DNA of 22,128 nt from a virus: IMG/VR virus record IMGVR_UViG_3300043773_000707, positions 1 to 22,128 of that record; one strand, written 5' to 3'. A program made the position numbers and the translations under genes. Shown here one piece after another: positions 1 through 16,257 of this stretch. The notes under the pieces were generated by a model that saw only the letters and a list, made by a program, of their open reading frames with translations, did no database searches and was not told where the DNA came from. How positions within the stretch are numbered: the first letter of the stretch is position 1; every line of letters starts with the position of its first letter.

Positions 1-64
1 ATTGCAGTATTCTCATATGGTCTCCGTAAAAACTTATGAATAATGCAATGTAGTGCTATTATAG

Positions 65-92
65 CCCACCCAAAGTTCTGTTGAACCCACCC
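65..92 (-). other. G-run pair flanking a small hairpin (possible quadruplex)
   Basis: On the minus strand two GGGTGGG blocks (complement of 86-92 and 65-71) are separated by 14 bases that contain GTTC-AACA-GAAC, a 4-bp hairpin. Four G-triplets with 1-nt, 14-nt and 1-nt loops fit an intramolecular G-quadruplex with a hairpin loop. It lies downstream of the leftward gene and its terminator, in otherwise AT-rich, apparently non-coding DNA at 17-142. Folding is inferred; only the runs are seen. Confidence 0.35.
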
Positions 93-132
93 TTATATAT
101 AGGTGAAGTTGTTTTGGTGGTTGCTGTAATCG

Positions 133-162
133 TAATAACAAAGACTTCCCTGTTAAGGGAAG
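133..162 (-). terminator. Leftward intrinsic terminator after the 133-aa gene
   Basis: A perfect 7-bp stem, CTTCCCT (145-151) with AGGGAAG (156-162) and a 4-nt loop, is followed in the leftward direction by TCTTTGTTATT. It starts 15 bases after the stop codon of the leftward gene. The 9-bp word GCCTTGTTA is tandemly duplicated at 162-179, between stop codon and stem. Together this looks like the end of a leftward transcript. Confidence 0.65.
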
Positions 163-176
163 CCTTGTTAGCCTTG

Positions 177-578
177 TTAGAACGAAGCGTTTGCAAGTGT
201 TGCAATAGCACTCTCGCTTAAGCCTGCTGAAGTTGCTTGTGTTTGGATTGCTTGTTGAATCTCAATGTCAAGTAATCTGCTATCAGCGTGTGCTTGCGTA
301 ATCTCGTTCTTGGTCTTGAAAGCACTCAATGCTGTTAAACGCTCTGACTTGATTTCAACACCCTCTTTGTCCACAACAGGTGTACCGTCTGCATTCAAAG
401 CACCAATTAGTTTAGTTTCTGCAATGCAGAAGAATGGAAATTGAACGTCTGCTGTTTGTTCCCAACCTAACGCATTCATTTGGCGTTTGTGTAAGTGAAC
501 GCGAACACCTAACGCAGTGTAGCCACTAAAATTTCCATTTCCTGTAAAAGCACCGTTGTTAATTACATAGTTTTTCAT
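177..578 (-). CDS. Unknown 133-aa leftward protein
   Basis: I do not recognise this protein. The open frame extends upstream to 656, but the ATG at 578 is the better start: it is preceded by an A-rich leader (AACAGAAACAAA) of the type used by the other genes here, and the extra 26 residues are Lys/Arg/Ile-rich and look non-coding. The protein has a Gly/Asn-rich N-terminus (NNGAFTGNGNFSGY), a middle that looks beta-rich, with VRVHLHKRQMNALGW, and a C-terminal helical part rich in Ala, Gln and Glu. No membrane segment or catalytic motif is visible. Its DNA looks richer in G+C than the rightward genes. It ends at its own leftward terminator and lies in the block transcribed away from the structural genes, so an early or replication-side role is possible but unproven. 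Confidence 0.7.
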   Translation of the reverse strand: MKNYVINNGAFTGNGNFSGYTALGVRVHLHKRQMNALGWEQTADVQFPFFCIAETKLIGALNADGTPVVDKEGVEIKSERLTALSAFKTKNEITQAHADSRLLDIEIQQAIQTQATSAGLSESAIATLANASF

Positions 579-632
579 TTTGTTTCTGTTTTTAATTAAT
601 ATTAATGATTTATGTACTCGATATGTGAAAAA

Positions 633-672
633 GGTTTTGGGACGGATTATCCTCAAAGTGAATAGGTTTTGG
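633..672 (-). repeat. Two copies of the CCAAAACC motif between the leftward genes
   Basis: On the minus strand CCAAAACC occurs at 640-633 and 672-665. Both copies continue as CCT plus a T/A-rich stretch and then TTCAC. They sit 55-62 and 87-94 bases upstream of the ATG at 578. No TAnnTTTG-type promoter was found for that gene in 579-694, so the motif may be an alternative promoter or regulatory element. That role is inferred from position only. Confidence 0.4.
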
Positions 673-694
673 TAGAAAGAATCAATAGCGTTTG

Positions 695-904
695 TTACAA
701 CGCTATCAATTCCTCAATGTTCTTGTTAGGCATTACATCATTAAGATTGATTGTAATCAGTTCTCCTTGGTCTATTGCAATGTTGTGAAACTCACAATAG
801 AGATTGTAGGTTTGCCACGTTGCAGGTGCTGCAATGTAATGATTGTTAAAGTAGAGTATCACTTCGTGTGTATCTCTAATGTACCTAATGTTAGTTAGTT
901 CCAT
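695..904 (-). CDS. Unknown 69-aa leftward protein
   Basis: This is a small acidic protein with no recognised family. The sequence MELTNIRYIRDTHEVILYF reads like a short alpha/beta domain, and the C-terminus (NLNDVMPNKNIEELIAL) is probably helical. The start at 904 follows an A/T-rich leader (AAAACATAATCATT) with no Shine-Dalgarno sequence, as for its neighbours. The overlapping rightward frame at 692-898 is Cys/Val-rich with no plausible leader and looks like a shadow. It is the most upstream leftward gene next to the divergence region, so it would be the first gene of the leftward transcription unit. A CCAAAACC motif lies 32-39 bases upstream of its start. Function is unknown. Confidence 0.65.
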   Translation of the reverse strand: MELTNIRYIRDTHEVILYFNNHYIAAPATWQTYNLYCEFHNIAIDQGELITINLNDVMPNKNIEELIAL

Positions 905-935
905 AATGATTATGTTTTAATTAGTATGTTCAAAA

Positions 936-943
936 GGTTTTGG
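936..943 (-). repeat. CCAAAACC motif upstream of the 69-aa gene
   Basis: On the minus strand this copy reads TACCAAAACCTTTTGAACA, sharing TACCAAAACCT with the copy at 665-672. It lies 32 bases upstream of the ATG at 904, a distance compatible with a promoter element. Confidence 0.4.
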
Positions 944-1032
944 TAATAATAATAATAAATAGCAGTCCAACTTATCACAGACATTTAATGTTAGGTTCGC
1001 ACGAAACTTCAGCCTAACAACTATTTATTAAT

Positions 1033-1059
1033 AAAAAATTAAGGCTTGCACTCCTTAAT
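1033..1059 (-). terminator. Orphan leftward intrinsic terminator
   Basis: ATTAAGG (1038-1044) and CCTTAAT (1053-1059) form a perfect 7-bp stem with an 8-nt loop. In the leftward direction it runs into TTTTTTATTAATAAATAG, a good U-tract; in the rightward direction there is none. No convincing leftward gene ends here, so either a short leftward RNA from 1060-1400 stops at this site or it blocks leftward read-through from the structural side. Confidence 0.55.
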
Positions 1060-1135
1060 GACATACTGTTTACTCTCGTCTTTACGGTGAGTAACTCAAT
1101 AGTGAATGATTTTAGGCTCACAACACCTAATTGTT

Positions 1136-1177
1136 GGGGGGATACTCCAACTCTCAAAATGTTATGGGGGGTTTTGG
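1136..1177 (+). other. Two G6 runs overlapping a GGTTTTGG copy
   Basis: Two six-base G runs (1136-1141 and 1166-1171) lie 24 bases apart in an AT-rich genome. The second runs straight into GGTTTTGG (1170-1177), which on the minus strand is the fourth copy of the CCAAAACC motif. Such G-runs are not seen in the coding regions of this window. A protein-binding or quadruplex role is possible. Confidence 0.35.
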
Positions 1178-1246
1178 TTAGAATAGGTCTACAAAGGCAC
1201 ACACACAATAGGTTTCCAAGTTTTGAAAAAAAATTTTGGAAAAAAG

Positions 1247-1279
1247 TTTGGAGCATATTGAAAATATGTTATACCTTTG
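1247..1279 (+). promoter_or_regulatory. Bacteroidota-type promoter P1 of the late operon
   Basis: TTTG (1247-1250), a 21-nt spacer and TACCTTTG (1272-1279) match the -33 TTG / -7 TAnnTTTG pattern of Bacteroidota primary-sigma promoters. Transcription would begin a few bases later, in or next to the G-run cluster at 1279-1293, giving a leader of roughly 125 nt before the first gene. The A8T4 / A6 tract (1226-1245) just upstream could act as an upstream bending element. Confidence 0.55.
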
Positions 1280-1293
1280 GCTGGGTGGGTGGG
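1279..1293 (+). other. G-run cluster at the predicted transcript 5' end
   Basis: The sequence GGCTGGGTGGGTGGG has runs of 2, 3, 3 and 3 G with loops of 2, 1 and 1 nt. It lies immediately after the -7 element of P1, so a P1 transcript would begin inside or just before it. Short-loop G-runs of this kind can form a two-layer or bulged quadruplex in RNA or DNA. That it does so here is inferred. Confidence 0.4.
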
Positions 1294-1359
1294 TATGTCT
1301 ATATAGATAGATTCTATTCCATAATATAGCATAGGAATAAAATATTTCTTCTTAATGTA

Positions 1360-1389
1360 TTGATTATAAGTTTTTATTATATATCTTTG
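1360..1389 (+). promoter_or_regulatory. Bacteroidota-type promoter P2 of the late operon
   Basis: TTG (1360-1362), a 19-nt spacer and TATCTTTG (1382-1389) fit TTG / TAnnTTTG exactly. The expected start is near 1396, about 18 nt before the ATG at 1414. P1 and P2 are a tandem pair giving long- and short-leader transcripts for the same operon. Confidence 0.65.
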
Positions 1390-1413
1390 TCCTTAGAATG
1401 TCAAAACTAAATT

Positions 1414-1845
1414 ATGACTCCAATTAAGATTATAGTACAAAGACTGAAGAAAGACATATCTAGTGATATGGAATTAGCACAGAAATACTACAGTGTTTTA
1501 TCTGCTATAAACAATCTTGGTCTTACAGAAAGAGAAATTCAATTGATATCCTTTACAGCTATTAAGGGAAACATTACATATGCTAATGTGAGAGAAGAGT
1601 TTTGTAAGACTTATAATAGTACATCTCCTTCTATCAATAACATCATATCCAAACTTAAGAAGGTGGGTATATTTATTAAGGAGAATGGAAAGGTGAAGGT
1701 CAATCCTATTATAGTGGTTGATTTCAGAAATGATTTAACGTTAGAAATAAAACTTGTACATGGAGAAGCCAATATCAATGTCAGTGAAAGAGTGGATAAT
1801 CAAGAGGATGTCCATCAGCATGGTGAAGTCGGAGAAGATAATTGA
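1414..1845 (+). CDS. Winged-HTH-like DNA-binding protein, first gene of the late operon
   Basis: This 143-aa protein is probably DNA-binding. Residues about 36-98 (LTEREIQLISFTAIKG, then TSPSINNIISKLKKVGIFIKE) read as a winged helix: three helices, a recognition helix around SPSINNIISKLKKVG, then a KENGKVKVNP wing. The C-terminal 45 residues are acidic and low in complexity, and their DNA also encodes the start of the next gene in another frame (68-nt overlap from 1778). The gene lies directly behind two consensus promoters, so it would be the first product of the operon. A role as a late regulator is inferred from fold and position; a DNA-recognition role in packaging (TerS-like) is an alternative. 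The exact family is not recognised. Confidence 0.8.
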   Translation: MTPIKIIVQRLKKDISSDMELAQKYYSVLSAINNLGLTEREIQLISFTAIKGNITYANVREEFCKTYNSTSPSINNIISKLKKVGIFIKENGKVKVNPIIVVDFRNDLTLEIKLVHGEANINVSERVDNQEDVHQHGEVGEDN

Positions 1846-2122
1846 TGCTGTTGTAACACATCAGTTTGATTCAGCCAATGATGCTTTGAATGAGAATGAT
1901 AGTGTGGAGATTTCTGGATTTGGTAAGTTTTTGTTTAATGCAAAGAAGGCACAATTACATTATAATAAACTTTTACAAATAAGACAAGCATACGAGAACA
2001 TTCTAGCAGATCCAAATACGACAGATAAGAAAAGAAGATCAACAGAACTTAGAATGAATACAGTGCTTACAGATATTAAAATTTTAAAACCAAAAATACA
2101 TGAGCCTGGGACAGATATATGA
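1778..2122 (+). CDS. IHF/HU-like nucleoid protein (phage-type, arm reduced)
   Basis: This 114-aa protein aligns without gaps to the HU/IHF core. SVKEWIIKRMSISMVKSEKI matches the first two helices, and FDSANDALNENDSVEISGFG corresponds to bacterial HU FDTITEALRKGDKVQLIGFG. The ATG at 1778 gives the N-terminal length expected for HU; upstream in-frame starts (1754 TTG, 1760 ATG) would add residues that do not fit. After GFGKF the usual basic beta-ribbon arm (RxxRxGxNPxTG) is missing and is replaced by a helical Lys/Arg-containing tail of about 60 residues, so DNA bending by arm intercalation may be lost. IHF-like genes are common in crAss-like phages. It overlaps the previous gene by 68 nt and the next by 23 nt. 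Likely roles are genome condensation or packaging architecture. Confidence 0.8.
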   Translation: MSVKEWIIKRMSISMVKSEKIIDAVVTHQFDSANDALNENDSVEISGFGKFLFNAKKAQLHYNKLLQIRQAYENILADPNTTDKKRRSTELRMNTVLTDIKILKPKIHEPGTDI

Positions 2123-2384
2123 GGGATGGAAGAATCACCTTCTTCCTGAGGAGAGAAATAAAGCTTTCATAGAACATGTTAGTGCAGAAAGACTAGCTGT
2201 ATGTGAAGCTTGCGAAGAACACTCTTCTAATAAGAAAGATTATAAGTCATTCAGACGCGATGCACATTGCACAAATTGTGGATGTACATTGTCTGCTAAG
2301 ACAAAATGTTTAACCTGTGAATGTCCATTAAAGAAATGGCTTCCACAATCAATTACAGAAGACAATGATACACCCTCTACGTAA
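2100..2384 (+). CDS. Small zinc-ribbon protein (CxxC...CxxCxC...CxxCxCPxxKW)
   Basis: This 94-aa protein has three paired cysteine motifs: CEAC at about 35-38, CTNCGC at about 57-62 and CLTCECPLKKW at about 70-80. The spacing and the terminal CPLKKW box resemble the small cysteine-cluster proteins common in phages of Bacteroidota and Firmicutes (DUF6171-like, assigned from memory). They are presumed zinc-binding, with no established activity. An N-terminal amphipathic segment (MSLGQIYEGWKNHLLPEERN) precedes the cluster. The start overlaps the IHF-like gene by 23 nt, and the end overlaps the next gene by 20 nt, so translation is probably coupled. Position between the IHF-like gene and the terminase suggests a role in DNA handling or packaging, without direct proof. 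Confidence 0.8.
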   Translation: MSLGQIYEGWKNHLLPEERNKAFIEHVSAERLAVCEACEEHSSNKKDYKSFRRDAHCTNCGCTLSAKTKCLTCECPLKKWLPQSITEDNDTPST

Positions 2385-2640
2385 AATTCCTTTGGAAATG
2401 CTTATTAATATCCTTCAAGATCTCTACGATGGTGGAGCTGATTATGTTGATATATCAGGAAACATTGATGAAGATGGAATGCCAAGAGATACTATTAAAC
2501 TTACAGTGAAACCTGAATATCTATCTGATTTTGATGAAGATAATACATTAAATCTAGAACATGAATTGGACTTAGAATGGTCAGAAGAAGACGATCTTCC
2601 TTCAAGTCTTTCTGATGAAGATATAAATGATTTAATATAA
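2365..2640 (+). CDS. Unknown 91-aa acidic protein
   Basis: I do not recognise this protein. It begins with a basic helix (MIHPLRKIPLEMLINILQDLY), followed by a predicted beta segment (ADYVDISGNIDEDGMPRDTI), and ends in a strongly acidic tail rich in Asp, Glu and Ser (LEWSEEDDLPSSLSDEDIND). The acidic tail may contact basic partners or mimic DNA, which is speculative. It overlaps the zinc protein by 20 nt and shares a TAATG stop-start with the next gene, typical of translational coupling. There is no membrane segment. Confidence 0.75.
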   Translation: MIHPLRKIPLEMLINILQDLYDGGADYVDISGNIDEDGMPRDTIKLTVKPEYLSDFDEDNTLNLEHELDLEWSEEDDLPSSLSDEDINDLI

Positions 2641-2915
2641 TGGCAAAACAACCAAACTATTACCGCCAGATTATAAGAACACTTCAGCGTTTAGAGAAGA
2701 GTCATCCTACGTATAATATAGGAAGACATCTATCTACAGCATTGTATGAGTATAATGACTTGTGGGGAGTGAGCGATAAAGAACTCCTATATGCTTTAGA
2801 GAAATATGAAATAGAGCTCAATATAGATTATCCACATATAGATGAAGAGGAACTTAAGGAGATTATAAAAGGTGGCATGAATTTGGAGAGAATGTTTGAT
2901 GAAGAGGATGACTAA
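2640..2915 (+). CDS. Unknown 91-aa helical protein
   Basis: No family recognised. The protein looks wholly alpha-helical: an N-terminal basic helix (YYRQIIRTLQRLEKSHPTYN), a conserved-looking stretch (IGRHLSTALYEYNDLWGVSD) and an acidic C-terminus (MNLERMFDEEDD). Its ATG overlaps the stop codon of the previous gene (TAATG), so the two are almost certainly co-translated. The gap of 11 bases to the next gene contains an A-rich leader. Its place three genes upstream of TerL makes a packaging-accessory or regulatory role possible. Confidence 0.75.
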   Translation: MAKQPNYYRQIIRTLQRLEKSHPTYNIGRHLSTALYEYNDLWGVSDKELLYALEKYEIELNIDYPHIDEEELKEIIKGGMNLERMFDEEDD

Positions 2916-2926
2916 AAAATAAAACA

Positions 2927-3259
2927 ATGGCATTAAATAAAACTACATACGTTAACACAGAGCTTGATTGGGCAGAACAACAACTTTCTTCTTGGAAGGA
3001 ATACGTTGATGCTAATCCACTACATCTATTAAAGGATAGAATAGAATGGAAGCCTACAGCTAAAGGAGGAATGTTACCTATGGTGATAGCCTCTATTGAA
3101 GCTCAAGGTAAGTTTGTCCAAGAGACAATGAAGAACTACCTAGCTCTTTTAGAACAAGTAGATAAACTACGTGAGAAAGAAGAGGCTAAGAAGATAGAGA
3201 CTAGAGGTGGCCAAGAACTTGGTTCTATGGCAGAAGACTTCTTAAAAGGTAGAGGATAA
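2927..3259 (+). CDS. Small protein directly upstream of TerL; candidate small terminase subunit
   Basis: This 110-aa protein is mainly helical. It has a Trp-containing N-terminal helix (ELDWAEQQLSSWKEYVDANP), a short segment LKDRIEWKPTAKGGMLPMVI, then a long predicted coiled coil (about 58-95, IEAQGKFVQETMKNYLALLE followed by Lys/Glu-rich turns) and a flexible end (GSMAEDFLKGRG). Its stop overlaps the TerL start codon (TAATG). Small terminase subunits are commonly encoded just upstream of TerL and contain a coiled-coil oligomerisation helix, which is the basis for the suggestion. No clear N-terminal HTH is visible, so the assignment stays tentative. It could equally be another packaging or head-assembly factor. 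Confidence 0.7.
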   Translation: MALNKTTYVNTELDWAEQQLSSWKEYVDANPLHLLKDRIEWKPTAKGGMLPMVIASIEAQGKFVQETMKNYLALLEQVDKLREKEEAKKIETRGGQELGSMAEDFLKGRG

Positions 3260-5283
3260 TGCAACTACATAATATAGAATATAAGGATTGGTTCATCAAT
3301 CAGGGAAGAATTCCAGATGAGAGTTCATCAGAATACAAGGCATTCTTCAATTTTCATAAGGAACTTTGTATGAATGGGTGTATGATGGATGGACAATATA
3401 TAAATCCATTTCTATATTGGCATTTAAACATATGGCATACAGAGGTAGACACCATAGATGAATATGGTAGGATAAATCAGAAGTATGCAAACCCTCTTCT
3501 TAGAGATAATGAATGGTTGGTAACAAACGAAATAGATAGAGCTCATAAGGAGAAGAAAGGCCTAGTTATACTAGGAATACGTCGTTTTGCTAAGTCTGTT
3601 ATTGAGGCATCATACATTGGTCAAGGAGCTACGTTTGATGAAAACTCACAGAACATTATTGCAGGACTGAATGCTCCCGATATAAAGCTTATTACAGATA
3701 AGATTGACAAAGGACTTAACTTCCTACCTAAAGCCTGGAGATGGCAGAGAGTAGAAGACAATTGGAAAAACCAAGTTACATTAGGGATCAAGACAAAAGC
3801 AGGAGAGAGAATCCCCTTTTCTCAGATCCTTATTCGTAACTTAGATGGTGGTAACAATGAAGAGGCTATTGCAGGTACGAAGCCTAGAAGGCTTATTATT
3901 GATGAGATAGGAAAAGGCTCATTTCTTAGAGGATTACAAGCTGCTGTACCAGGTTTTACAACACCATTTGGTTGGGGATGTTCGCCTATTCTTACAGGAA
4001 CAGGTGGAGATATGAAGATGTTCATGGATGCAAAGAGCTTAATGTTCGATGTTGAAAATTTCAACTTCTTAGAATACAACAATGCAAAGGATGATAAGAG
4101 AGTGCATGGATTGTTCATTTCACATAAATATAGAATGGAGGCCAAGGAAGAAAGTTCTCTTGGTGCATTCTTAGATAAACCAGCAAGTTCTTCTTTACAT
4201 GAAGTGAAGATGATGGTATCTAATGAAGAGAAAGCTACAGAGATTACTAATAACAATCTAGAGAAGCTTAAAAAAGCTGGCGATAGAATGGCCTATCTTA
4301 AAGAGAAGATGTACTACCCACAAGAAGTGGATGACATATTCTTGAATGAAGATACAAACATATTTGATATTGATGCAGCTAAGCGTCAGAAGACTAGACT
4401 GTTAGCTCAAGAAAGAACAGGAACACCTGTATTCTTATATGATGATGGAAATGGTGTAAAGCATGAGTTTACAGATAAACTTCCTATATCTAACTTCCCA
4501 TTAAAGAATACAGATCAAAAGGATGCTCCTGTAGTGATATATGAGTTTCCAATTGAAGCTCCTCCATATGGATTATATGTTGCAGGGATTGACCCTTATA
4601 GACAAGGAAAATCTGCATACAGTTCATCATTAGGATCTGTTTATATATACAAACGTATGCACGCTATTTCTGGAGAGAAGTATCAAGATATGTTTGTAGC
4701 TAGTTATTGTGCTAGACCAGATAAGAAAGAAACATGGGAAGAACAAGCTCGTTATCTTATTAAGTATTACAATGCTAGGGCCCTATGTGAGAATGATGAA
4801 ATCTCGTTCATTGACTATATGATAGCTAAAGGAGATGCTCATTACTTAGAGAGACAACCAGATTGGTTAAAAGAAATAGTTCCTAACACCACTGTAAGAC
4901 GTGATTATGGAATACATAGATCTTCTGAGAAAATACGAGACTTCCTTCATGGATGTCTTAAGAAGTATACAGAAGAAGCTGTGCATGTGGAGAAAGATGA
5001 TGATGGAAACATCATATCAGAAATAAAAGGAATGTCAAAGGTATTTGATCCTGTCCTATTAGAGGAGATGATCCAGTATAATGAACAAGGTAACTTTGAC
5101 CGTATCATTGCTGCAGAGCTTGCAATAGCTCTAGCTATGAAACTAGATCCTATTATGGGTAAAATAGGTGGAGAGGAAGATGGAAGAATGAAATCAATGT
5201 TCACTAAGAACAAAAAGAATACTCTGTTTACAGAAAGCAGAACAATGTTTAACACACCAAAGAAAAATAAATTGTTTAGATAA
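3259..5283 (+). CDS. terL: Terminase large subunit (packaging ATPase and nuclease)
   Basis: This 674-aa protein is the motor that translocates phage DNA into the procapsid and cuts the concatemer. The ATPase motifs are in order: a Walker A variant LGIRRFAKS (about 105-113), Walker B RLIIDEIG (about 211-218, with catalytic Glu after Asp) and coupling motif LTGTGG (about 245-250). The C-terminal RNase H-like nuclease is marked by GIDPYRQGKS with Asp445 and CENDE with Glu511 as probable metal ligands; I could not place the third acidic residue with certainty. An extra segment between the domains (about 255-420) is rich in Lys and Glu. The gene is coupled to its neighbours at both ends by TAATG overlaps (3259 and 5283). 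Length and motif order are normal for tailed phages. Confidence 0.95.
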   Translation: MQLHNIEYKDWFINQGRIPDESSSEYKAFFNFHKELCMNGCMMDGQYINPFLYWHLNIWHTEVDTIDEYGRINQKYANPLLRDNEWLVTNEIDRAHKEKKGLVILGIRRFAKSVIEASYIGQGATFDENSQNIIAGLNAPDIKLITDKIDKGLNFLPKAWRWQRVEDNWKNQVTLGIKTKAGERIPFSQILIRNLDGGNNEEAIAGTKPRRLIIDEIGKGSFLRGLQAAVPGFTTPFGWGCSPILTGTGGDMKMFMDAKSLMFDVENFNFLEYNNAKDDKRVHGLFISHKYRMEAKEESSLGAFLDKPASSSLHEVKMMVSNEEKATEITNNNLEKLKKAGDRMAYLKEKMYYPQEVDDIFLNEDTNIFDIDAAKRQKTRLLAQERTGTPVFLYDDGNGVKHEFTDKLPISNFPLKNTDQKDAPVVIYEFPIEAPPYGLYVAGIDPYRQGKSAYSSSLGSVYIYKRMHAISGEKYQDMFVASYCARPDKKETWEEQARYLIKYYNARALCENDEISFIDYMIAKGDAHYLERQPDWLKEIVPNTTVRRDYGIHRSSEKIRDFLHGCLKKYTEEAVHVEKDDDGNIISEIKGMSKVFDPVLLEEMIQYNEQGNFDRIIAAELAIALAMKLDPIMGKIGGEEDGRMKSMFTKNKKNTLFTESRTMFNTPKKNKLFR

Positions 5284-7868
5284 TGGCAATAATTAGATAT
5301 ACAAAAGATGCTACCATCAGGTATGCATACTTAAACATCTTCCCAGATCAGTTTAAAACTGAGAAGGAAAAACAGGATGAAAGTTGGATTAAAAATACAA
5401 TGGACTATTTCTCCAACAAAGCATATGCTGAGTATGTAAAGAATAGAGATACGTTCGTTAAGAATTATGATCTTATGAAAGGAATCTTACGTATGGAGGA
5501 TTTCTATCAAGAACCAGAGGTTAGAAGTTTCACAGATGTGCTTACAGCAGATTTAGAACTTCCTGCTTATGTGAAAATGTATTCTATTATTACCACTCCT
5601 GTTAATGAGTTGGTAGGAGAGATTTCTAAACGACCTGATACATTTAGAGTGAAAGCTTTTGATGATGATAGTCAAGCAGAAGAACTACAATTTAAAACAG
5701 AAACCTTACAAAAATATGTTATCACTCAAGCTAAACAAAAATTACTTGAGAGAGCTGCTATAGAAGGAGTAGAGATTCCTGAAGAAGAATTAGATCAAAT
5801 GACAATGGATCAAGTTAAAGATCAATTGGATAGCTATACATCTGTTGCTGAGAAGTGGGCAAACCACATTCTTACATGTCAAAAAGCTGAGTTTAATTTA
5901 AAAGAAAAATCTGAAGATGCTTTCAGAGACATGCTTATTTCTGCTAGAGAATTTTACCATATATATGAAGACAATTCGAAACTTGGTTTCAACATCGAAG
6001 TGGCTAACCCGAAGAACACTTGGTTTCTTACCACTCCTGATAGAAAATGGATATCTGATCCCACAGGTAGAGCTCAGGGAGCCTATGCTGCTGGTACAGT
6101 ACAAGTTATGGAGCTTTCGGAGATCATTGAAAGCATACCAGATCTTACAAAAGAGGAAATCGATCACTTACGTTCATCGTTACAAGACTATGGATTAATT
6201 AATGTACGTGAGTCAAATCTTGGTAATCCAGATGCTATTCCTGGACAAGACTCTGTAATGTATGATACATTTGATCCTCTTGTATTACAAACAAGAATGA
6301 TCATTGAATCAGAGATGAAAGAGAATAATGATGGACTTAAAGACTTTTTAGGACTTACTAATAATGTAAGTTCATTTGGTTATAAGTATGTTGTTGTGCG
6401 TAGCTATTGGATTTCTAAAAGAAAGATAGGTAAACTTATCTATGTAGATGAGATGGGTAATGAACAATCAACATTAGTTGATGAAACATATAAATCAGGA
6501 ACTATTCCTACACAAATTTCACTAGAATGGGGATGGATTAATGAATGGTACCAAGGAACTAAAATTGGTCCAGACATCTACCACATCAAACCATTTAAGT
6601 TATTAAACTATTGTCCTATTATAGGAACAACATATGAGGTGAAAAATACAGAGGCTAAATCTCTAGTAGACTTAATGAAGCCTTTCCAAGTGATATACAA
6701 TGTTTGTATGAACCAATTATACAAACTATTAGAAAAAGAAGTTGGTAAGGTTCAACTTATGTCATTGAGACATATTCCTATTCCTAAAGATGGAGATGCA
6801 CAAGATGCTCTTGATATATGGGAAATGGAAGCACGTAATAGAGGAGTGGTATTTGTTGATGATTCTCCAGAGAACTTAAAAGCTCCTAGTTCATTCAATC
6901 AATTTACATCTCTCGATCTTACACGTACACAGGAGATACAGTCTAGATATACATTAGCTCAACAAATGAAAGCTGAGTGTTGGGAACTTGTAGGTATGTC
7001 TAAACAACGTATGGGTGATATATCTGCTTCTGAAAGTGCTACAGGTACTAACACTGCTATGCAACAATCGTATTCTCAAACAGAACCATTGTTTGTAGCA
7101 CATGAATATGTAATGGGTCAATTATACCAAGCTATTATTGATGCCGCATTATATGTAGAGAGTGATAAACCACAATCTACACTTTCATATATTACAGGAG
7201 AAGGAGAATCTGCATTTGTACAAGTGAATGGTTCAGATCTTAAATTCCGTGACTTAAAAGTGTTCTTAACTAATAGACCTGAGGATCAACAAATGTTCAA
7301 TGAGCTTCGTGCATTGGCACAACCTTTGATGCAGAATGGTGGATCATTATATGATGTTATTGAATTGTATAGCACTAAGTCTATGAGAGAAATGAAGAAA
7401 ACATTCAAAGATCTTAGAGACCAACAGATTGCTCAACAACAACAAACTCAACAGCTTGAACAACAAAAACTTGAACAACAAGGTCAAGTGGCTCAAGCTC
7501 AAATGCAACAAGCTGTTCAATTGGCACAAGAACAACAAGCTCATGATGATTATCAAAATCAACTTGATAGATTATCTAAAGAGAAAATTGCTATTATTCA
7601 AGCTACAGGATTTGGAAAAGTGGAAAGTGAAGATGTTAATTCTAATGCTGTTCCTGATGTACTAGAAGTTAGTAGATTATCAAATGATCAATCTAAAGCT
7701 GCGCAAGATTATCAATTGAAGATGCAAGAGATACAAGGTAAGTTAAAAGAATCTAGTGACAAGAAACAAATAGAAATGGAAAAACTTAAAGTGGCTAGAG
7801 AAAATATGCAGAACGATTTAGCAGTGGCTAAAGAGAATGCTAAGGGCAGAAATAACAAAAAAGGTTAA
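5283..7868 (+). CDS. Portal protein (crAss-like, 861 aa)
   Basis: This is the probable dodecameric portal ring at the unique head vertex, through which DNA enters and to which the neck attaches. Position directly after TerL, size, and the mixed alpha/beta core are the main evidence. The stretch DLMKPFQVIYNVCMNQLYKL and the following conserved-looking RMGDISASESATGTNTAMQQ box read like portal clip and stem regions, where conserved SASEAATG-like motifs occur. The N-terminal third contains a long acidic helical insert (about 130-195). From about residue 713 the protein becomes Gln-rich (many QQ pairs to about 760) and then a Lys/Glu coiled coil to the basic end (AKGRNNKKG), possibly a barrel or DNA-contacting tail. 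The length fits the large portals of crAss-like phages. Confidence 0.88.
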   Translation: MAIIRYTKDATIRYAYLNIFPDQFKTEKEKQDESWIKNTMDYFSNKAYAEYVKNRDTFVKNYDLMKGILRMEDFYQEPEVRSFTDVLTADLELPAYVKMYSIITTPVNELVGEISKRPDTFRVKAFDDDSQAEELQFKTETLQKYVITQAKQKLLERAAIEGVEIPEEELDQMTMDQVKDQLDSYTSVAEKWANHILTCQKAEFNLKEKSEDAFRDMLISAREFYHIYEDNSKLGFNIEVANPKNTWFLTTPDRKWISDPTGRAQGAYAAGTVQVMELSEIIESIPDLTKEEIDHLRSSLQDYGLINVRESNLGNPDAIPGQDSVMYDTFDPLVLQTRMIIESEMKENNDGLKDFLGLTNNVSSFGYKYVVVRSYWISKRKIGKLIYVDEMGNEQSTLVDETYKSGTIPTQISLEWGWINEWYQGTKIGPDIYHIKPFKLLNYCPIIGTTYEVKNTEAKSLVDLMKPFQVIYNVCMNQLYKLLEKEVGKVQLMSLRHIPIPKDGDAQDALDIWEMEARNRGVVFVDDSPENLKAPSSFNQFTSLDLTRTQEIQSRYTLAQQMKAECWELVGMSKQRMGDISASESATGTNTAMQQSYSQTEPLFVAHEYVMGQLYQAIIDAALYVESDKPQSTLSYITGEGESAFVQVNGSDLKFRDLKVFLTNRPEDQQMFNELRALAQPLMQNGGSLYDVIELYSTKSMREMKKTFKDLRDQQIAQQQQTQQLEQQKLEQQGQVAQAQMQQAVQLAQEQQAHDDYQNQLDRLSKEKIAIIQATGFGKVESEDVNSNAVPDVLEVSRLSNDQSKAAQDYQLKMQEIQGKLKESSDKKQIEMEKLKVARENMQNDLAVAKENAKGRNNKKG

Positions 7869-15126: not shown

Positions 15127-16257
15127 ATGTCCAATTGCTCAAATTGTTATAACGGATGTACAGAGATTGTCTCTGACAGATGTGTTAAATATACAGGAAT
15201 AGATGTTCCTGTCCTAGGAATCCAAACAGGTGATTCATTATCATTTGTAGAACAAGCATTGATTACATTCCTTACATCTACATTAGATGGTACAGGAATT
15301 AAGATTGATCTTGGTACTACAGTTGTATGTAACCTTGTGCAACAATATCTTCCTACATGTGGAGATCTTTCTATTGTAGATATATCAAAAGCTCTTATAG
15401 AAGCTGCTTGTGATCTTCAAGAACAAATAGATGCTATTGATGCAGATCTTGCTATATTGAATGCTGATTACTCAATTGGATGTTTAACAGGTGTTACAGC
15501 TTCATCAGATACACATGCTATTGTACAAGCTGTTATAAATAAACTATGTCAAGTACAAGTTGATTTAACAGCATTAGCTTTAAATGTTTCTACAAACTAT
15601 GTAAGTATTGCAAATATAAATTCTTATATTCAAGCTTATTTAAATAGTATAAGTTCTTCTACATTAGTTAGTAATAAGATGGTTCCTTATACAGCAGTTC
15701 CTTATTTTGGACCATTGAGTTATTTTAATGGTACAGGAGCTGGTACAGGAGACTGGGTTAAGATCTATTTATGTAATGGTCAAAATGGAACTCCAGATTT
15801 AAGAGGAAGAACATTAGTTGGTACCACTACTGGAATGTTTGGAGGAGCATTAGATCCAGAAGTTGATCCTGCAAATCCTGCAAATCCTAATTATATAATA
15901 ACAACTGAAGTTGGAGCTAATGAAGTATTTTTGTCATCAACTCAAATACCTGCGCATACACATATTGCTACAGCAGTAGCAACTGTCACTCCAGCAACTC
16001 ATTCACATTTAACTGTGTCTGAGGGAACATCTGTTCCTTTAAATGTAGATGATCCAATTGATTCAGGATATTCTTCTGGAGGAAACTTAGGGTATTCCTT
16101 AAGATCTGCATCAGATACAATTGCAAACCTTGGTAAAACAAACGATGTTACTATAGGTGTAGGCGTTGCTGTATCAAATTCTTCAACAGGAGGAGGATTA
16201 GGTCATGCGAATATACAACCTTCTAGAGGATGTTATTATATCATTTATATACCTTAA
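15127..16257 (+). CDS. Tail fibre protein with a tail-collar domain
   Basis: This 376-aa protein is a fibre-type structural protein. Residues 1-20 have paired cysteines (CSNCYNGC). An adaptor follows at about 22-55 (VKYTGIDVPVLGIQTGDSLS) like that of the two downstream fibre genes. Then come helical, coiled-coil-like repeats (IEAACDLQEQIDAIDADLAI). The C-terminal domain (about 195-376) has the marks of the phage tail-collar / microcystin-dependent-protein family: GDWVKIYLCNGQNGTPDLRGR (around 208-228, with D224), PAHTH (H277, H279), THSH and a final NIQPS...YYIIYIP strand. Such domains occur at receptor-contacting fibre tips. No Thr linker is present. It starts the fibre cluster proper. Confidence 0.85.
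   Translation: MSNCSNCYNGCTEIVSDRCVKYTGIDVPVLGIQTGDSLSFVEQALITFLTSTLDGTGIKIDLGTTVVCNLVQQYLPTCGDLSIVDISKALIEAACDLQEQIDAIDADLAILNADYSIGCLTGVTASSDTHAIVQAVINKLCQVQVDLTALALNVSTNYVSIANINSYIQAYLNSISSSTLVSNKMVPYTAVPYFGPLSYFNGTGAGTGDWVKIYLCNGQNGTPDLRGRTLVGTTTGMFGGALDPEVDPANPANPNYIITTEVGANEVFLSSTQIPAHTHIATAVATVTPATHSHLTVSEGTSVPLNVDDPIDSGYSSGGNLGYSLRSASDTIANLGKTNDVTIGVGVAVSNSSTGGGLGHANIQPSRGCYYIIYIP

Follow-up and report, generated by a model that had tools for sequence, protein, structure and literature searches.

A conserved element precedes the first genes of the leftward block in a family of crass-like phages. With a probability of roughly 0.45, we interpret it as the promoter of the first leftward (non-structural) transcription units, the virion RNA polymerase (RNAP) of the phage being its most likely reader. 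In our best reading phage-specified machinery recognizes the element, and it is the choice of polymerase that we infer; the phage's RNAP or a helper protein may pick out the first leftward genes by means of it. As judged from sequence comparisons, the element serves only the head of the leftward block and not the block as a whole.

Four copies of an 8-mer in the window

The window, i.e. the whole stretch of 22,128 bp analysed here, which is an entire virus record, contains CCAAAACC exactly four times, always on the minus strand and inside 545 bp (633-640, 665-672, 936-943 and 1170-1177), compared with 0.35 copies expected (sd 0.58) and with four or more in none of 100 shuffles of the window. 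The original prediction had listed these four positions and had noticed no copies among the rightward genes; the positions match exactly, and there is no further copy in the 22,128 bp. A longer contig of the same virus (G001, 73,907 bp, identical to the window at 15,280 of 15,280 compared bases) carries the same four copies and no fifth. The window and this contig end at the identical base on the side of window position 1.

Downstream of the core, three copies continue as CCAAAACCTTTTTCAC, CCAAAACCTATTCAC and CCAAAACCTTTTGAAC, and the copy at 1170 as CCAAAACCCCCC, in agreement with the earlier description of a T plus a T/A-rich stretch in three copies and a TTCAC end in two. Copies 1 (665-672) and 2 (633-640) start 94 and 62 nt before the ATG of the 133-aa gene, and copy 3 (936-943) ends 31 nt before that of the 69-aa gene, which is the placement that had been proposed (two copies before the former gene, one before the latter). 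The claim that both genes lack a TAnnTTTG box is likewise borne out, neither the copy at 633 nor that at 936 having one within 60 nt. Comparison with relatives places the 8-mer at the core of a longer conserved element, of which the copy at 1170 represents a different form. The features of the region are collected in Table 1. The upstream tandem copy is followed by TCACTTTG, one letter off TAnnTTTG, and the context of copy 3 was also found in one relative (L005).

Table 1. Features of the divergence region and the neighbouring genes (window coordinates)
Feature	Position	Strand	Basis
Form B element, copy 2 (core CCAAAACC 640-633), promoter-like, 133-aa gene	617..646	-	nhmmer match 649-617, 27.3 bits; motif columns
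Copy 1 (core 672-665), in tandem 32 bp upstream of copy 2	650..678	-	sequence
Form B element, copy 3; its core (943-936) ends 31 nt before the 69-aa start codon	920..949	-	nhmmer 943-924, 14.1 bits, E 0.1
Leftward element of the divergence region: copy 4, form A (core 1177-1170)	1145..1190	-	PWM, 41 bits
Hairpin GTTGG..CCAAC, immediately downstream of the form A element	1133..1151	-	stem analysis
133-aa leftward gene, putatively served by copies 1 and 2; predicted OB-fold, weakly SSB-like	177..578	-	20 relatives; AF2; fold matches
69-aa leftward gene, putatively served by copy 3	695..904	-	no family match above cut-off
Terminator-like hairpin between 69-aa gene and copy 1, without a clean T-run	685..706	-	sequence, by eye
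143-aa protein encoded divergently; predicted winged helix, candidate regulator	1414..1845	+	relatives; AF2; fold match
TACCTTTG, rightward Bacteroidetes-type -7 box (contrast case)	1272..1279	+	sequence; relatives
TATCTTTG, second rightward Bacteroidetes-type -7 box	1382..1389	+	sequence; relatives

Two forms of the element among relatives

Relatives were compared on the basis of the 133-aa gene (20 loci), the 143-aa gene (80 kept of 108) and the terminase (80 kept of 481). Of 80 fetched loci, 73 had at least 600 nt, and these yielded 61 distinct loci. The set used for form B comprises the 61 distinct loci plus ten taken in on account of the element or the 133-aa gene, which had already been seen in them, so its counts are enriched; one match (L023, position 198) was taken out by hand before counting. 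Both the PWM and the HMM were trained on loci that were scored later.

The block TCATCCATCCCAAAACCTTTTNNACA before the 133-aa gene is kept in near relatives, with variable surrounding sequence, and is absent from the seven most distant of the 20 relatives of that gene. Form B, represented in the window by the copy at 633 and more weakly by the one at 936, has the consensus TCCATCCCAAAACCYTTTNNACANNNNGAG over 25 distinct sites, and conservation is strong at most positions between -6 and +16; the motif columns of these sites show a contiguous block with no free spacer, and at 9 of the 25 sites there is a tandem upstream copy or half-copy. Form A, to which the copy at 1170 belongs, sits between the diverging gene blocks and is present in 59 of the 61 distinct loci. 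It reads AGACCACTCCATATCAAAACCCCCCATACAATTTGAGAGGTTGGGG in some relatives and is AGACCCATTCCAACCAACTACCCCACCTATTTTTTGG-like in others, and because its letters differ in this way CCAAAACC must be considered a lineage variant within form A. In all nine long records scanned (73.9-118.9 kb) form A is single-copy (41-59 bits each), and the next-best sites, when one-base shifts of the form A site are ignored, are form B (up to 21 bits) or chance matches (up to about 11). The general order is a contiguous block (TCCATCCCAAAACCYTTTNNACA), usually followed by GAG, an inverted repeat in most copies, an A-rich leader and the ATG.

Distance to gene starts

At 30 of the 31 form B sites an ORF of at least 35 aa starts 31-76 nt downstream, compared with a mean of 4.5 sites and a maximum of 12 for random positions on the same strands (2000 trials). 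For form A, the next ORF of at least 60 aa begins 64-82 nt further on in 37 of 59 cases. Among 37 downstream proteins, some of them taken after weak element matches, BLAST delineated groups of 18 (133-aa type), 9 (171-aa), 3 (114-aa) and 2, with five singletons including the 69-aa protein. Since several unrelated gene groups follow at a near-constant distance, the element goes with gene starts rather than with any one gene.

This association also bears on the possibility that the repeats and hairpins belong to an origin of replication, situated where two replichores diverge. In 9 of 9 records the minimum of the cumulative GC skew falls within about 1.1 kb of form A, and the region contains G-runs, A-tracts and hairpins. 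However, form B travels with gene starts at a near-constant distance, and divergent transcription alone could yield the skew minimum; we therefore consider an origin very improbable.

Relation to the host-type TAnnTTTG box

By the Bacteroidetes -7 box the two forms differ: TAnnTTTG is absent within 60 nt of all 31 form B sites, whereas form A carries the exact box at the matching place in 10 of 59 sequences (random windows: mean 0.47, maximum 4), the two of the 61 loci with no form A match having been left out and the ten carriers being partly close relatives. This hints, at the level of sequence, at a host-type -7 box in those copies. Some other form A relatives have no TTTG whatever at that place.

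Between same-strand genes of the nine long records, TAnnTTTG occurs 93 times in sense and 33 times in antisense orientation; only these pooled counts are used, as an orientation test found nothing and the left/right labels are unreliable. This bias would be expected if the other genes of these phages had host-type promoters, and such boxes elsewhere in the genome would be read by the host polymerase. In the divergence region, the rightward boxes at 1272 and 1382 precede the 143-aa gene; 48 and 51 of the 61 relatives, respectively, retain their complements. A perfect E. coli-type sigma-70 consensus, TTGACA-N17-TATAAT (1404-1376, minus strand), was considered and rejected: it overlaps the rightward TATCTTTG in reverse, its first hexamer is lost in many relatives, and it is probably a chance overlap.

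The same region contains other conserved stretches. Between the two tandem rightward boxes lies CATAATATAGCAT (1315-1339, plus strand) with flanks TATTCC/GGAATA, the most conserved stretch of the region; the core of its complement, GCTATATTAT, recurs in 60 of the 61 distinct relatives. Another one, GGGTGGGTGGGT (1283-1294, plus strand), of which complementary 9-10-mers are kept in 33-37 of the 61 relatives, is a possible G-quadruplex in the rightward leader.

The product of the divergent 143-aa gene is predicted by AF2 to contain a winged helix (core pLDDT about 85-92, mean 72.5). Its top Foldseek match is the activation domain of T4 MotA (E 4.1e-3, 72 columns, 24% identity), a weak and generic match directly after which MarR-type proteins are ranked. 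The leftward element could accordingly be imagined as a site where a phage activator, possibly this very protein, binds the TCCATCCCAAAACC block and offsets a degenerate -7 box for the host RNAP. Such an arrangement would suit the ACA found at a fixed place and followed by TTCG/TTTG-like letters in some copies, the exact box in part of form A, the tandem upstream copies of form B and the MotA match itself; it sits poorly with the generic character of that match and with the several form A relatives that lack any TTTG. We regard it as possible but somewhat doubtful.

Hairpins and the leader

The best stem right after form A averages 16.8, compared with 10.8 for shuffled letters (59 sequences), with varied pair types, and in some relatives an outer stem encloses the hairpin. 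At many form B sites a shorter inverted repeat follows (GAGT..ACTC or a variant, for example GAGAATATTCTC); at others it is weaker, or lost as in copy 2 of the window. A conserved hairpin, which an N4-type promoter would have at a fixed place relative to its start site, was accordingly seen after form A but not consistently after form B. Wobble pairs in the stems after form A comprise 44 G-T and 29 A-C, a weak lean towards the leftward RNA strand that is too slight to decide the matter. If RNA starts at or near the GAG, as the virion RNAP reading would have it, the transcript would begin with a small hairpin.

The hairpin after form A with its varied pairs, the wobble counts and the near-constant distance to the ATG could also be explained by a function of the block and hairpin in the 5' untranslated RNA (in stability or translation), with the promoter located further upstream. 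This is unlikely in our opinion, as the block forms no common structure in the folds shown, the element has no Rfam match, and form B lacks TAnnTTTG within 60 nt. Searches with Rfam 15 at the gathering score gave nothing in window positions 1-3000, with one sub-threshold match at 135-239, and among ten relatives no match of the element, only a tmRNA. The tmRNA gene, in relative L061, lies at 1610-1941 on the minus strand (72.8 bits). Neither of the hairpins picked out by eye between the leftward units, one at 685-706 and the other at about 1030-1053, was scored as a terminator.

Family specificity and reach over the genome

As an unbiased check on the enriched form B counts, the 23-nt form B pattern TCCATCCCAARACCYTTYNNACA was scanned against 2.9 million viral contigs, yielding 22 matches in 21 stretches, and none for a rearranged control pattern. 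All 21 stretches hold a relative of the 143-aa, terminase or 133-aa protein of the window; four of the 21 contigs were new to the comparison. An ORF starts 27-75 nt past the pattern in 21 of the 22 matches, and the remaining one is cut by the stretch end. Among named phages, the element is absent from the examined stretches of Leptolyngbya phage Lbo-JY46 and Cellulophaga phage phi17:2, and from the first 50 kb (roughly the first half) of phi14:2.

With up to one mismatch, CCAAAACCTTTTNNAC occurs at 12 places in 7 of 25 records; form B at the head of the leftward block accounts for nine of these (six exact, three with one mismatch), and the remaining three, all with one mismatch, fall elsewhere. 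TTCCATCCCAARACCC, with up to two mismatches, has one match apiece in 8 of 30 records (control: 0). A PWM scan of three long records found nothing clearly above chance outside the divergence region, a result that rests on form A (26-28), as the best chance scores (12-13) overlap those of form B (8-16).

The suggestion that the motif is a promoter or operator is thus well supported by its conservation, single orientation, near-constant spacing to the start codons of unrelated genes and family-specific occurrence. It does not extend to a genome-wide promoter of leftward genes, a candidate that we rejected, for in the long records the element is confined to the very start of the leftward block.

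Phage identity and the putative reader

The phage is crass-like by its terminase, portal and head proteins (PHROG matches 6681, 6547 and 11589), and a relative (G002) encodes the crass muzzle protein PF25731 (E 1.2e-36). The giant protein of 4390 aa in G002 matches the virion RNAP of phi14:2 (6vr4_A, E 2.5e-22); its counterpart in the window's virus (G001) has 4580 aa, and the SDFDIDK motif (DxDxD type) of this giant RNAP is present in 9 of 9 records, G001 included. The assumption of a crass-like phage with its own large RNA polymerase was therefore correct. By terminase the closest named phage is PP438436.1 (L201; 39.6%), whose listed host, the cyanobacterium Leptolyngbya boryana, is odd for a crass-like phage. 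In another record of the window's virus (L181) we also noted a 2286-aa protein with collagen repeats (PF01391; 10157-17017, minus strand) and a 1146-aa protein with methyltransferase and glycosyltransferase domains (3321-6761, plus strand), the latter with an ORF of equal length in G002.

In its AF2 model (pLDDT 89) the 133-aa protein folds into a small beta-barrel followed by a helix at the C-terminus. Matches to known folds are weak (best PDB E 1.1e-2), SSBs ranking first in Foldseek; a second fold search retrieved OB folds generally (CspA, Rho, SSB; Z up to 7.0). Binding of single-stranded nucleic acid is plausible on the basis of this model.

A review describes a crass virion RNAP that is injected with the DNA and transcribes early and middle genes, the host polymerase transcribing late ones (PMC10136315); for crAss001, middle and late genes are assigned to the host polymerase (PMC8375218). 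Transcription of the early genes by the virion RNAP is common to both accounts (PMC10136315, PMC8375218). A polymerase that enters with the DNA would most likely need no more than a few promoters, placed where the early block begins. The element has no host box in form B and is unique to the head of the leftward block, and hence fits a virion-polymerase promoter. Against this reading stand the exact TAnnTTTG in 10 of 59 form A sequences, the lack of the element in the first 50 kb of phi14:2, which carries the characterised virion RNAP, and the broad early and middle range given for the polymerase in the review (PMC10136315), compared with an element found at the first units only. The resemblance of the 133-aa product to a replication protein, rather than to a classical immediate-early one, also counts weakly against it. 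That the element defines the promoter class of crass-type virion RNAPs, with a contiguous block and a start-site hairpin and a use restricted to the beginning of the early block, is a tentative proposal.

Comparison with known systems

In the literature searched, to which the key phi14:2 paper does not belong, we found no description of a promoter for a crass-type virion RNAP. For these abundant phages, which inject a giant RNA polymerase, the element offers a short, family-specific promoter candidate, whose defined start-site predictions make the question testable in vitro and in metatranscriptomes.

The primary promoter of Bacteroidetes (TTTG / TAnnTTTG) is found in other intergenic regions of the phage and in some form A copies; however, form B is devoid of the box at 31 of 31 sites, and its conserved block occupies what would be the free spacer. 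With phi14:2 (PDB 6vr4) the window's phage family shares a clear sequence homologue of the virion RNAP, but not, within the 50 kb mentioned above, the element.

In T4 middle promoters the activator MotA makes up for a weak basal box. A conserved upstream block, a weak basal box and a nearby winged-helix phage protein are reminiscent of this system, although the fold similarity of the 143-aa protein, predicted from a structure model, is weak.

The early promoters of phage N4, read by a T7-like virion RNAP, are present in few copies at the first-transcribed genes and have a hairpin beside a conserved block. N4 differs from the present family in its T7-like enzyme; moreover, the hairpin of the present element follows the block and is not alike in the two forms, and the promoter role is putative. 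Nevertheless, the phages of the window's family resemble N4 in the few copies at putatively first-transcribed genes, in the hairpin by the block and in carrying a virion RNAP.
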